NCBI RefSeq assembly: GCF_012971745.1
Contig: NZ_CP048834.1
Location: forward strand, 4,969,001 to 5,033,000
From: Starkeya sp. ORNL1
Lineage (GTDB): Bacteria; Pseudomonadota; Alphaproteobacteria; Rhizobiales; Xanthobacteraceae
Direction: 5' to 3'
DNA: 64,000 nt
The position numbers and the translations under genes are program-made. This document shows, piece by piece, positions 43,134 through 47,309 of this stretch (within the stretch, counting starts at the first letter, position 1; each line of letters begins with the position of its first letter). The notes below the pieces were generated by a model. That model had not been told where the DNA came from. It worked only from the letters and a program-made list of their open reading frames with translations, and ran no database searches.

Positions 43134-43916
43134 TCACCAGGCCGGCAACACCGAACCCTTGAACTTGTCCAGCACGAACGCCTTCACCTCCGGCGAGTGA
43201 TAGGCCTCGACCAGCGTCTTCACCCACGGCTTGTCCTTGTCGGCGGTGCGCACCACGATCAGATTGACGTAGGGCCCCTTGGCATCCTCCTTGAGGATGG
43301 GATCCCTGGTCGGGTCGAGGCCGGCGGAGACGGCGTAATTGGTGTTGATGCTGGCGGCGTCGACATCCTCCAGCGAGCGCGGCGTCTGCGCGGCGTCGAG
43401 CTCGACGAAGCGGAGCTTCTTCGGGTTGTCGACGATGTCGACGACCGTCGGCTTGAAGCCGGTGCCCTCGCGCAGCTTGATGACGCCGCGATCCTGCAGC
43501 AGCAGGAGCGCGCGCCCGCCATTGGTCGGGTCGTTCTGGATGGCGATGGTGGCGCGGTCGGGGATTTCCGCCCAGCTCTTCCACTTCTTCGAATAGACGC
43601 CGAGCGGGAAGTTCACGGTGGGCGCCGCGCTTTCGATCCTGTAGCCGCGATCGGCCTTCTGGTTGTCGAGATAAGGCTGGTTCTGGAACGAGTTGGCCTC
43701 GATCTCGCCGGCGTCGAGCGCCTGGTTCGGCACCACATAGTCGGAGAACTCGATGATCCTGATCTCCAGCCCCTTGGCGGCGGCGATCGGCTTCACCGCT
43801 TCCAGTATCTGGGCATGCGGGCCGGGAGTGACGCCGATCCGCACGACCTCCGCGGCCGGCGCCGGGGAGGCGGCCGCGAGCAGGCCCGCCAGCAGGAGGA
43901 GACCTTGGAGCTTCAT
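43134..43916 (-). CDS. metQ: MetQ/NlpA family substrate-binding protein, operon copy
   Basis: A 260-residue periplasmic binding protein. The signal peptide (MKLQGLLLLAGLLAAASPAP) lacks a lipobox Cys, so it is predicted soluble, unlike MetQ of enterobacteria. The MetQ core is plain: VRIGVTPGPHAQILEAVKPI, EFSDYVVPNQALDAGEIEAN and FQNQPYL. The ligand could be methionine or a related organosulfur compound. A stem-loop lies between it and metI (43980-44002). Confidence 0.9.
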   Translation of the reverse strand: MKLQGLLLLAGLLAAASPAPAAEVVRIGVTPGPHAQILEAVKPIAAAKGLEIRIIEFSDYVVPNQALDAGEIEANSFQNQPYLDNQKADRGYRIESAAPTVNFPLGVYSKKWKSWAEIPDRATIAIQNDPTNGGRALLLLQDRGVIKLREGTGFKPTVVDIVDNPKKLRFVELDAAQTPRSLEDVDAASINTNYAVSAGLDPTRDPILKEDAKGPYVNLIVVRTADKDKPWVKTLVEAYHSPEVKAFVLDKFKGSVLPAW

Positions 43917-44028: not shown

Positions 44029-44694
44029 TCAGTTGCGGCGCAGCCGCCGGTTCACCCGCCGCGCCAGCGTCTCGCCGAAGCTCTGCACCGCCTGCACCAG
44101 CACGATCAGCACGACGACGACGATCAGCATCACTTCCGGCATGAAGCGCTGATAGCCGTAGCGGATGCCGAGATCGCCGAGCCCGCCGCCGCCGACCGCG
44201 CCGACCATGGCGGAGTTGGACAACAGGCTGACAATGGCCAGCGTGATGCCCAGCACCAGCCCCGGCAGCGCTTCGGGAATCAGCACCTTGCGCACGATCT
44301 GCAGTGGCGTCGCGCCCATCGCCAGCGACGCCTCGACCAGGCCGTGGTCGACCTCGCGGACCGCGGCCTCGACGATGCGGGCGATGAAGGGCGTCGCGGC
44401 GAGGGTGAGTGGCACGATGGCGGCGGTGGTACCAATCGAGGTGCCGGCGATCAGCCGGGTGAAGGGGATGATGGCGACGACGAGAATGATGAAGGGCGTC
44501 GAGCGCGTCGCATTGACGATGACGCCGAGCGCCTTGTTGAGCGCGACGGCCTCGAACAATTCGCCCTTGCCGCTGGTGGCGAGGAAGATGCCGAGCGGCA
44601 GGCCCAGCACCGTGCCGAGCAGCGCGGCGATGCCGACCATATAGAGCGTCTCGAGGGTGGAATCGACGATGAGACCGATGAGCTCAGGCGACAT
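44029..44694 (-). CDS. metI: Methionine ABC transporter permease MetI
   Basis: A 221-residue permease with five predicted helices. The EAA loop is EVDHGLVEASLAMGATPLQI, and NATRSTPFIILVVAIIPFTR is a conserved MetI block. Its start lies 11 bases inside the metN end. It forms the MetNI membrane channel. Confidence 0.92.
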   Translation of the reverse strand: MSPELIGLIVDSTLETLYMVGIAALLGTVLGLPLGIFLATSGKGELFEAVALNKALGVIVNATRSTPFIILVVAIIPFTRLIAGTSIGTTAAIVPLTLAATPFIARIVEAAVREVDHGLVEASLAMGATPLQIVRKVLIPEALPGLVLGITLAIVSLLSNSAMVGAVGGGGLGDLGIRYGYQRFMPEVMLIVVVVLIVLVQAVQSFGETLARRVNRRLRRN

Positions 44695-45838
44695 GGCCGA
44701 TCACCTCCAGCACGATGTCGGGCGAGGCGAGGGCGGAGGCGACCGCGCCGCTCGACCAGTTCATAGTCGGTACGCCGACGAACAGCAGGGCGAAGGGCTC
44801 GCCCCCGATGCTGTCGATCTGCCCGCCGAGCAGCGTCACATCGATGCCGAGCCCGCGGCCGAGCTGCGTGACCACCGGACGCGTCGCCGCCTCGCCGGTC
44901 AGGGTCAGGCGCAGCACGGTCTGCGAGGCGCCTGCCTCCGGCGCACCGAGGCGCGCGGCGATGGCCGGCGGCAATTCGCGGCCGGGCAGGCTGCCGACAA
45001 AGGAGCGGGCGGTCGCGGTGCGCGGATGGGCGAACACCTCGTGCACCGGCCCTTCCTCGATGATGGCACCAGCATCGATCACCCCGACGCGGTGGCAGAT
45101 CTCCTTGATCACCGTCATCTCGTGGGTGATGAGCACGATGGTGACGCCCAACTCGGCATTCACGCGGGCGAGCAGAGCGAGGATGGAGCGCGTCGTCTCC
45201 GGATCGAGCGCCGAGGTCGCCTCGTCGGACAGCAGCACGTTGGGTTCGGTCGCCAGCGCGCGGGCAATGCCGACGCGCTGCTTCTGGCCGCCGGAGAGCT
45301 CGACCGGGTAGCGGTCGCGCTTGTCGGTGAGGCCGACGAGTTCCAGCAGCGGCGTCACCCGCCGGTCGATCTCACGGCGGGACAGGCCAAGGAGCTCGAG
45401 CGGCAGCGCGACATTGGCAAAGGCGGTGCGCGAGGAGAGCAGGTTGAAGTGCTGGAAGATCATGCCGATCTTTCGCCGCTCGGCACGCAGCGCGCTATCA
45501 TCGAGGCGGTTGACGGCGATGCCGTCGACCAGCACATCGCCCCGGCTCGGCTGTTCCAGCCCATTGATGGTGCGGATCAGCGTCGACTTGCCGGCGCCGG
45601 AGCGGCCGATCACGCCATAGATCTCGCCGCGGGGGATCGCCAGCGACACGCCCTTCAACGCGTCCACCGCCGGATCATCGCCGCGCGCCGGGAAGGTCTT
45701 CCAGACATCGTCGAGCACGATCATCGCGCGGTCGCCATTGGTGGCGCGGCGTGCGGCCGTTGTCGACGGCACCGCGGCGAATGGCGGGAGCAGCGTTGCC
45801 GGCGGGGCGGCGACGAAGGTGGCGGTGTGCTGGGACAT
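44684..45838 (-). CDS. metN: Methionine ABC transporter ATPase MetN
   Basis: A 384-residue ATPase from the longest start; a start at 45724 would give the usual N-terminus MIVLDDVWKTFPARGDDPA. Walker A is GRSGAGKST, signature LSGGQKQRVGIARAL, Walker B VLLSDEATSALD. The C-terminal regulatory NIL domain is present (VLRLTLTGEAATRPVVTQLG), which in MetN binds methionine and stops transport. The extra N-terminal 38 residues are Ala/Pro-rich and may be spurious. A LLSDEATSALD Walker B with Ser before Asp is normal for MetN. Confidence 0.92.
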   Translation of the reverse strand: MSQHTATFVAAPPATLLPPFAAVPSTTAARRATNGDRAMIVLDDVWKTFPARGDDPAVDALKGVSLAIPRGEIYGVIGRSGAGKSTLIRTINGLEQPSRGDVLVDGIAVNRLDDSALRAERRKIGMIFQHFNLLSSRTAFANVALPLELLGLSRREIDRRVTPLLELVGLTDKRDRYPVELSGGQKQRVGIARALATEPNVLLSDEATSALDPETTRSILALLARVNAELGVTIVLITHEMTVIKEICHRVGVIDAGAIIEEGPVHEVFAHPRTATARSFVGSLPGRELPPAIAARLGAPEAGASQTVLRLTLTGEAATRPVVTQLGRGLGIDVTLLGGQIDSIGGEPFALLFVGVPTMNWSSGAVASALASPDIVLEVIGHVA

Positions 45839-45873: not shown

Positions 45874-46074
45874 TCAAGCCGCACGGCCGAGCTCCTGCGG
45901 CAGGAAACCGAGGCGCCGGCGTTCCTGGTCGAGGCGCGCCTTGACGGCGCCCGGCGTCAGGCCGTCGCGGCGCAGCACCAGATGGATGATGGGATCGGCC
46001 AGGATATCGTCGATCGAAGGCTCGACATGCGCGTCGGCCCACGCATGGCGCGCGTCAATGGAGAAAGAGGTCAT
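45874..46074 (-). CDS. Small conserved-looking protein ahead of metN
   Basis: A 66-residue protein between the leader region and metN: FSIDARHAWADAHVEPSIDD, then ILADPIIHLVLRRDGLTPGA and a charged tail. It has no signal or membrane helix. GGGA lies 8 bases before the ATG, and it ends 35 bases before metN, so it is probably translated as the first full gene of this operon. I do not recognise the family; the sequence is protein-like, with PSIDDILADPIIHLVLRRDG looking like a short helical motif. Confidence 0.7.
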   Translation of the reverse strand: MTSFSIDARHAWADAHVEPSIDDILADPIIHLVLRRDGLTPGAVKARLDQERRRLGFLPQELGRAA

Positions 46075-46090
46075 TGCATTCGTCCCGAAG

Positions 46091-46109
46091 GCCGGATGTG
46101 CGATCCGGC
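46091..46109 (-). promoter_or_regulatory. Stem-loop after the leader peptide
   Basis: GCCGGAT and ATCCGGC form a perfect 7-base stem with loop GTGCG. It lies 30 bases after the leader stop and 17 bases before the 66-residue gene. No T-run follows, so it would act by access to the ribosome site or as an anti-structure and not as an intrinsic terminator. Confidence 0.5.
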
Positions 46110-46138
46110 ACGGCTCTACATGGAAAGCGAGAGGCGGC

Positions 46139-46177
46139 TCAAGGCCGGCGGGGACGGGTACAACACGATTGAGTCAT
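46139..46177 (-). CDS. Candidate 12-residue Cys-Cys leader peptide
   Basis: MTQSCCTRPRRP and stop. An exact AGGAG ribosome site lies 7 bases before the ATG, one of the best in the window. The two adjacent Cys codons in a leader before sulfur transport genes fit attenuation by charged cysteinyl-tRNA: when Cys is short the ribosome would pause at Cys-Cys and change downstream folding. The hairpin at 46091-46109 lies just downstream. Confidence 0.6.
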   Translation of the reverse strand: MTQSCCTRPRRP

Positions 46178-46216
46178 GGTTCAGCTCCTGATTAGCCCGA
46201 CCACGACATCGCTCGT

Positions 46217-46271
46217 GGCGCTTTAGCAAGGGTGACGCGGTGCAAGCTGCCGGGTTTCAAATCCCGCGGTC
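46217..46271 (-). ncRNA. SAM-II-like riboswitch candidate
   Basis: On the minus strand the element reads, in pieces: CGCGG, then GATTTGAAACCCGG, CAGCTTGCA, then CCGCG, TCACCCTT and GCTAAAGC. CGCGG pairs perfectly with CCGCG (P1), and the loop holds the GATTTG and GCTTGCA blocks that characterise SAM-II, with GCTAAA in the tail. The A-rich stretch normally found after P1 is changed here, so a variant or related class is possible. The position, upstream of metN, I and Q, fits. Confidence 0.55.
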
Positions 46272-46502: not shown

Positions 46503-47309
46503 ATGTCTGACATATCCCGGCGCTGGCTCGGCCTCGCCGCCGCCACCGCCTTTGCCACGCTTGCGGTCGCGCTGCCCGCGGCGGCCGCCGAAAAGGTCAA
46601 GCTCGGCGTCATCGGCGGCGAGGAGGAGGAGATCGCCGAGGTGGCGAAGAAGGTCGCGGCCAAGGACGGGCTCGAGATCCAGATCGTCACCTTCTCCGAC
46701 TACACGCTGCCCAATGAGGCACTGTCGCGCGGCGATCTCGACGCCAATGCCTTCCAGCACCAGCCCTATCTGAATGCGCAGATCGCGGCGCGGGGCTACA
46801 AGATCGTGCCTGCGGGCTTCACCATCGTCGAGCCGATCGGCTTCTATTCGCTGAAGCACAAGAGCTTCAAGGATCTGCCTGAAGGCGCGCAGATCGGCAT
46901 CCCGAACGATCCCTCGAATGGCGGGCGGGCGCTCAACCTCCTCGCCGCCAACGGCCTGATCAAGCTCGCTTCGGGCAAGGGCCTGCAGCCGACCGTGCTC
47001 GACGTCACCGACAATCCGAAGAAGGTGAAGTTCCGCGAACTCGACGCCGCGCTGCTGCCGAAACAGCTTCCCGATCTCGACGGCGCCGTGGTCAACACCA
47101 ATTACGCGCTCGGTGCCAAGCTCGATCCGCGCAAGGACGCGCTGGTGCAGGAGAGCCGCACCGAGAACCCGTACGGCAATTTCGTCGCGGTCCGCGCCGG
47201 TGACGAGAGCAAGCCCGCCATCCGCAAGCTGGTCGACGCCTATCAGTCGCCGGAGGTGAAGGCGTTCCTCGAGACCCGCTTCAAGGGCGCCATCCTGCCG
47301 GCCTGGTGA
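46503..47309 (+). CDS. MetQ/NlpA family substrate-binding protein, divergent copy
   Basis: A 268-residue binding protein with a Sec signal (cleaved after AAAA before EKVKLG). KLGVIGGEEEEIAEVAKKVA, FSDYTLPNEALSRGDLDANA and FQHQPYL are MetQ blocks. It is clearly different from the operon copy (43134-43916), so the two may widen ligand range with one MetNI channel. GGGAGAG lies 6 bases before the ATG at 46503; an upstream frame (46455) has no site. No permease or ATPase follows it. Confidence 0.9.
   Translation: MSDISRRWLGLAAATAFATLAVALPAAAAEKVKLGVIGGEEEEIAEVAKKVAAKDGLEIQIVTFSDYTLPNEALSRGDLDANAFQHQPYLNAQIAARGYKIVPAGFTIVEPIGFYSLKHKSFKDLPEGAQIGIPNDPSNGGRALNLLAANGLIKLASGKGLQPTVLDVTDNPKKVKFRELDAALLPKQLPDLDGAVVNTNYALGAKLDPRKDALVQESRTENPYGNFVAVRAGDESKPAIRKLVDAYQSPEVKAFLETRFKGAILPAW

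Follow-up and report, generated by a model that had tools for sequence, protein, structure and literature searches.

Short frames that place cysteine codons before sulfur genes are known as the polycysteine leader ORFs of mycobacteria, in which the frames are leaderless and are not known to be accompanied by a riboswitch. The locus described here, from a window of 64,000 nucleotides (the whole stretch of DNA analyzed) of Starkeya sp. ORNL1, has in common with them a Cys-codon leader before sulfur genes, but its frame is led by a Shine-Dalgarno (SD) sequence and stands behind a SAM-II-like element. A tandem-Cys uORF before cysS in the Rhodobacterales (uORFC-8-2), for which attenuation has been proposed (PMC8632094), likewise places tandem Cys codons in a short SD-led alphaproteobacterial frame; in the available text of that source no aptamer is described, the gene downstream is cysS rather than the uptake genes seen here, and UGC is dominant, compared to TGT here.

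With respect to the aptamer, a 2014 survey reports, in its available text, SAM_alpha (SAM-II, RF00521) only in the Rhizobiales and Rhodobacterales, before metY, metA, metX, hom, metC, and metW (PMC4239095). The present element shares with SAM-II the P1 stem, the H-type pseudoknot, the SAM-contact bases, and a methionine/SAM-cycle gene context, and differs in an additional hairpin (P3), a score below the gathering cut-off, a position before uptake operons, and an occurrence in Rhodospirillales and Geminicoccales. The pocket of SAM-V is closely similar to that of SAM-II, according to the accessible portion of PMC6061858, but the P3 of SAM-V directly follows P1, whereas the extra hairpin here follows GCTAAA. 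A precedent for a leader that combines a riboswitch with a codon-sensing ORF is mgtA, where a Mg2+ riboswitch and the ORF mgtL share one leader (PMC6460261, available text); Mg2+ and proline are the signals there, and here a SAM-II-like pseudoknot stands in series before a cysteine leader. For the combination of a SAM-II-like aptamer with a Cys leader, a stacked arrangement that the preliminary description took to be new, no earlier account was found in the openly licensed literature.

The leader region and its SAM-II-like element

Read 5' to 3' on the minus strand, the region consists of the SAM-II-like element, AGGAG, the leader frame, a 7-bp hairpin, GGGACG, a 66-aa ORF, genes of the metN, metI, and metQ types, and a luciferase-like monooxygenase gene. 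A second metQ-type gene (46503-47309) is divergent from this operon. The features are:

46196..46270, minus strand: SAM-II-like aptamer with extra hairpin P3 (RF00521 at 18 bits, E 0.16; R1 match, locus in the seed; P2a swap test)
46236..46268, minus strand: P1 stem, CGCGG (46268-46264) with CCGCG (46240-46236) (sequence and RF00521 alignment)
46201..46218, minus strand: inserted hairpin P3, CCACG (46218-46214) with CGTGG (46205-46201) (sequence)
46185..46189, minus strand: SD of the leader frame, AGGAG (sequence; each of the 15 same-genus frames has an SD-like site ahead of it)
46139..46177, minus strand: leader frame of 12 codons, MTQSCCTRPRRP and stop (sequence and relatives)
46165-46160, minus strand: tandem Cys codons TGT TGT of the leader frame (sequence)
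46151..46156, minus strand: predicted anti-SD CGTCCC within the leader frame, just past the Cys codons (RNA folds; duplex test)
46091..46109, minus strand: 7-bp hairpin GCCGGAT-CGCAC-ATCCGGC (sequence; inner hairpin of a larger predicted fold)
46072..46086, minus strand: initiation site of the 66-aa ORF, with SD-like GGGACG at 46086-46081 and the start codon at 46074-46072 (predicted pairing with the leader)
45874..46074, minus strand: 66-aa ORF, first of the operon, 35 nt before metN, with no Pfam or NCBIfam match
44684..45838, minus strand: metN-type ABC ATPase (Pfam ABC_tran and NIL)
44029..44694, minus strand: metI-type permease (Pfam BPD_transp_1)
43134..43916, minus strand: metQ-type binding protein (Pfam Lipoprotein_9)

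The 12-codon frame with a ribosome site and adjacent Cys codons, from which the preliminary description started, is present on the minus strand with its ATG from 46177, a TGA stop at 46141-46139, and a spacing of 7 nt between AGGAG and ATG. The aptamer ends 6 nt before the leader SD and 18 nt before the leader ATG.

Rfam at its gathering cut-off has no match within the window, and RF00521 scores the element at 18.0 bits against a cut-off of 36. Among 10 further loci RF00521 is present in four (19-29.7 bits) and it is found at the element in eight of 12 class loci (24.2-32.4 bits), such that no variant element tested, from the window or from either group, exceeds the cut-off, and the element is therefore named SAM-II-like rather than a member of RF00521. 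Several features nonetheless bear out the earlier identification of a SAM-II-like element. The contact bases of SAM-V and SAM-II (available text of PMC6061858), once mapped to the motif here, correspond to UUU, UUG, and UAAA, and all three are intact in the window and in 88 of 94 elements. The P1 stem and P2/P2a pseudoknot of SAM-II are recognizable from the sequence and a swap test, in which the two P2a strands (e.g., CCCGGC/GTCGGG, GGAGC/GCTCC, GGGC/GCCC, CGGAA/TTCCG, and GGATTC/GAATTC) co-vary across 92 distinct elements, with a mean helix score of 8.95 compared to 6.52 +/- 0.35 (maximum 7.49) in 500 swaps. That score derives from a free register; a fixed-register test was mildly positive (2.45 vs 2.20 +/- 0.06), with the P3 boundary probably set too far out. 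The new feature of the aptamer is the extra hairpin of ~5 bp, inserted after GCTAAA and ahead of the 3' strand of P2a; its stem varies in relatives, with forms such as CCATGC/GCATGG and TCACG/CGTGA. Together with the gene context, the sequence indicates that the aptamer probably binds S-adenosylmethionine.

A canonical SAM-II element that scores 53 bits is also present in the source genome, upstream of a metZ-like gene, and canonical elements provide a control for the leader. Among 31 canonical loci (the 30 best-scoring plus L001, from few genera) none is followed by a short frame with SD and ATG, compared to 69 of 91 variant elements, and all 69 of these frames contain Cys. Allowing GTG and TTG starts, 10 of the 31 controls have a short frame (Cys in seven, CC in none), apparently as read-outs of terminator sequence.

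Two further observations concern the operon and its surroundings. The small proteins encoded by the first ORFs of these operons match neither Pfam nor NCBIfam and are of two kinds, the first with the motif DDILADP..LVLRRDGL and the second, at many other loci, with YVIEVG..AG..VR..FHA...LEG..F. Two minus-strand copies of AATAGTCTAY with an A/T-rich tail (46439-46424 and 46355-46340) lie in the stretch that separates the operon from the divergent metQ-type gene; two matches were observed and none expected in shuffles, similar sites are visible in relatives, and the copies are possibly a transcription factor site that would constitute a third input.

Conservation of the cysteine leader

With the 66-aa ORF as query, matches at E <= 0.01 were obtained in 27 of 198 genomes of the family, six of them from the same genus and distinct from that of the window. 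All six same-genus loci have an SD and a frame with CC, encoding MTMCCRRPKRA (two loci), MTMCCRHLVRP, MTKMCCPCCV (two loci), and MTATRLKPMCCPCC. Thirteen named loci share the 66-aa ORF; eight are from Ancylobacter species, two are Xanthobacteraceae with the same arrangement, and three (L042-L044) have no such leader frame. A covariance model of the aptamer element (R1), seeded with seven loci including that of the window, identified the element in half of the 30 genomes of the genus (15, with that of the window counted) and in none of the other 15. At all 15 same-genus places outside the window, six of them already found through the 66-aa ORF, the element is followed by an SD-preceded CC or CCC frame, further examples being MSASCCCRPRP (L165) and MTMCCCRRPKRP (L161), and length differences ahead of the Cys codons within the genus amount to whole codons. 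The alignment among relatives that had been proposed as a check thus retains the frame, the Cys pair, and the ribosome site, and the leader is confirmed by this conservation as a genuine tiny gene with adjacent cysteines, ahead of a sulfur-nutrient uptake operon.

Across the order, R1 identified the element in 75 of 397 genomes and 23 of 141 genera. The order-level set comprises 81 places outside the window and 13 genus loci that include it, for 94 loci studied and 91 distinct. At 79 of the 91 distinct loci, the frame that begins at the first start codon with an SD, looked for within 80 nt, is no longer than 45 aa; Cys is present in 78 of these frames and CC in 37. Cys accounts for 173 of 1636 codons in the leader frames, whereas the two alternative reading frames have 68 and 40 and the shuffled expectation is 55.2 +/- 6.9 (maximum 77 in 1000 shuffles), an enrichment of ~3x; CC peptides number 37 compared to 14.0 +/- 2.7 when residues are shuffled inside peptides, though the loci are kin, such that the counts are not independent and the significance values are overstated. 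The leader Cys codons are TGT in 123 cases and TGC in 50, compared to one TGT and 20 TGC in 22 downstream or window genes. Short SD-led frames with enriched and often tandem Cys are what a Cys attenuator would look like, and as a putative sensor of Cys-tRNA the leader frame is well supported by its codon content.

The 12 loci lacking a short frame include L058, where the element directly precedes a MetN-type gene, L053, where a small ORF resembling the 66-aa one and then a solute-binding protein follow it, and two loci (L107 and L112) where it is followed by an ORF and then a homocysteine S-methyltransferase. As an additional feature of the leader peptides, Cys-Arg-Arg is common at the end (L055, L085, L110, L114, L118, L121, and others), and 19 of 44 CRR sites are written TGT CGA CGC or CGT.

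Proposed read-out of the leader and its coupling to the aptamer

The 7-bp stem-loop of the preliminary description exists in the sequence, but the main regulatory pairing is probably a different one. In the minimum-energy and centroid folds of the window, the Cys codons and CGTCCC pair with the ribosome site (GGGACG) and the start-codon segment (TGCAAT) of the ORF that follows, and this longer predicted pairing of the Cys codons and adjacent anti-SD is the better candidate. The leader/ribosome-site duplex of the window is equalled by one of 500 shuffles and one of 22 swaps, and the fold as a whole has only a small margin over shuffled sequences (z -1.5; 20 of 200 were as good). Among Ancylobacter-type loci, the pairing between leader and downstream site is above the shuffled-leader average in 11 of 11, with p <= 0.05 in seven; outside of this type it reaches p <= 0.05 in one of 20. 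Swapping leaders and ribosome sites between loci gave means of -16.4 vs -15.2, a weak test because GGGA and TCCC are shared by all loci. In another genus, an intrinsic terminator with a 5' arm starting 1 nt before a Cys codon occurs at five of eight scanned loci; overall, a terminator arm lies inside the leader at seven of 79 loci, and any terminator-like site occurs in 3.3% of shuffles. With the pairing in Ancylobacter-type loci and the terminator in another genus, the read-out seems to vary among lineages, with the Cys frame as the constant part. An intrinsic terminator was also considered for the window's leader and was rejected after a scan found no terminator-like site there; the same scan found no sigma-70-type promoter.

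The preferred interpretation, which agrees with the two-input control proposed in the preliminary description and to which a probability of roughly 55% is assigned, is a two-stage sensor in which SAM controls the loading of the leader and stalling at the Cys codons opens the operon. In the first stage the SAM-II-type aptamer with its added hairpin would bind SAM and reduce ribosome loading on the leader frame, and in the second the frame would read Cys-tRNA. For Ancylobacter-type loci, the predicted partners of the Cys codons and anti-SD are the SD and the start codon belonging to the next ORF, a pairing that would keep the operon shut in its default state. A ribosome paused on the Cys codons would mask that strand of the leader and free the downstream site (translational attenuation); with the usual ribosome footprint sizes, the anti-SD would be covered when the second Cys codon occupies the A site. 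An untranslated leader would keep the next ribosome site shut, fast translation would permit refolding, and a stall at Cys would open it, while in the genus with a terminator arm at the Cys codon the equivalent would be transcriptional attenuation. The operon would be fully on only when both SAM is low, with the leader loaded, and Cys-tRNA is low, with the ribosome stalled. SAM binding, the sign of its effect, the stalling, and the coupling with its AND logic are what we infer from sequence comparisons.

The strongest competitor, though an unlikely one, is that SAM control and the Cys attenuator are both real and act separately, with SAM affecting transcription or RNA stability in an OR/additive manner and no gate on leader initiation. 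A pairing linking the aptamer to the leader's SD that looks obvious by eye failed the swap test (11.34 vs 11.00 +/- 0.25, maximum 11.83), so such a link could not be demonstrated, terminator-like sequence lies behind the canonical SAM-II controls, and SAM-II is reported to alter RNA stability in Sinorhizobium (available text of PMC9373788). Separate action is at odds with the lack of a terminator-like site in the window's leader and with the leader SD at 6 nt past the aptamer, the position of the translational SAM-II platform. An improbable alternative has SAM promote leader translation, in that P2a formation would take up an anti-SD (CTCC) otherwise paired with the leader SD (GGAG). The 3' strand of P2a at L046-like loci (GCTCC) is indeed complementary to the leader SD, but the corresponding strand of the window (TCGGG) is not complementary to AGGAG, so the relationship is not general; the same swap test was not significant, and where this aptamer stands immediately in front of metZ/metY-type genes it would be expected to act as an OFF switch.

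It is quite improbable that the aptamer-like element has another ligand or is no longer functional, leaving the Cys attenuator to work alone. The low RF00521 score of the window (18 bits) and the change in geometry introduced by the inserted hairpin would be compatible with this, but not the retention of the pocket motifs in 88 of 94 elements, the P2a co-variation, or the association with methionine and SAM-cycle genes. A very improbable role for the Cys-Arg-Arg peptide would be nascent-chain arrest or metal/redox sensing in place of Cys-tRNA sensing; CR occurs in 60 of 79 leader peptides and CRR or CCR in 45 of 79, often near the stop, but MTKMCCPCCV, MTCCCP, and MTSHYCCP have no Arg pair and the downstream genes are sulfur genes. 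Conservation of the TGTCGACGC stretch as RNA only, with an incidental frame, is scarcely credible, since the shared spelling at 19 of 44 CRR sites and the predicted pairing of the strand are set against 12 different codon triplets encoding CRR, the frame-0 enrichment of Cys (173 vs 68 and 40), and the whole-codon length changes within the genus.

Distribution and gene context across the class

A broader covariance model (R2) applied to 385 genomes of the class identified the element in 79 genomes and 54 of 277 genera, at 105 places. Canonical SAM-II reaches up to 34 bits with R2, so the 11 class matches below 40 bits may be canonical, and without them the element is present in 73 of 385 genomes. 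The element also occurs in Rhodospirillales and Geminicoccales records. Cys leader frames are present in all five plasmid records named here, which were chosen among the best-scoring matches listed: Azospirillum brasilense Sp7 (...QCCQMRNACCRR), Niveispirillum cyanobacteriorum (MTCCCP), Microvirga ossetica, Tistrella mobilis, and A. lipoferum 4B, in which a hypothetical protein and then an annotated methionine ABC transporter come after a leader ending ...LCCR. A separate observation is a possible tandem riboswitch at L197, where the variant element (1494-1567) is immediately preceded by a SAM-II-like element (1355-1433, 34.4 bits); such pairs are found in two class genomes (G932 and G759).

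For gene context, 89 of the 105 places were taken, omitting the 14 lowest-scoring and two already in the order set (the window and G311), and 75 were parsed after 14 that did not fit the search expression were dropped. Forty of the 75 loci start with a short frame (<=50 aa), 31 with Cys and 13 with CC, and at many of the remaining loci the element directly precedes a sulfur gene. Nine of 27 automatically picked downstream ORFs had no Pfam family at E <= 1e-8; some of these are probably wrong frames and they were excluded from the gene calls. Downstream profile matches include MetN with the NIL domain and binding proteins of the NMT1 and SBP_bac_11 types, and the leader-bearing L172 and L177 precede MetN-type genes by profile; some leaders precede genes to which no identity could be assigned, for example at L252, where the downstream protein has no profile match. 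These profiles identify sulfur-supply genes, the targets expected of a Cys attenuator. Directly after the aptamer, profiles identify Cys_Met_Meta_PP (metZ/metY-type; L183 and L218), MTHFR (L232), and siroheme synthase (L214), a placement that fits SAM feedback, as well as an alpha/beta hydrolase interpreted as metX (L178); other metZ/metY, metX, and siroheme-synthase labels at class loci were assigned by eye and motif rather than by profile.

These gene calls suggest a tendency for uptake genes to have a leader and synthesis genes to have none. There are exceptions in both directions. The MetN gene of L058 and the SBP_bac_11 gene of L203 (profile match, directly after the aptamer) have no leader frame, and the siroheme-synthase-like L217 and L236 have a short frame holding one Cys. 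The variant aptamer lies directly before siroheme synthase at L214, L216, and L219 (L214 profile-checked) and directly before sulfate-type binding protein genes at L203 and L204 (L203 profile-checked), which suggests SAM control of sulfate assimilation.

It is possible, at somewhat less than even odds, that these loci represent a module widespread in the Alphaproteobacteria, with translation of a Cys leader gated by a distinct SAM-II subtype to form an AND gate for uptake, while the leaderless aptamer serves methionine synthesis through SAM alone. A candidate SAM-II subtype missed by Rfam at its cut-off occurs in 54 of the 277 sampled genera of the class. Should the two-stage interpretation be correct, the locus would be a natural two-metabolite logic gate, built from a leader peptide placed in series behind a riboswitch, and would account for the coupling of sulfur uptake to both SAM and cysteine in the Alphaproteobacteria.
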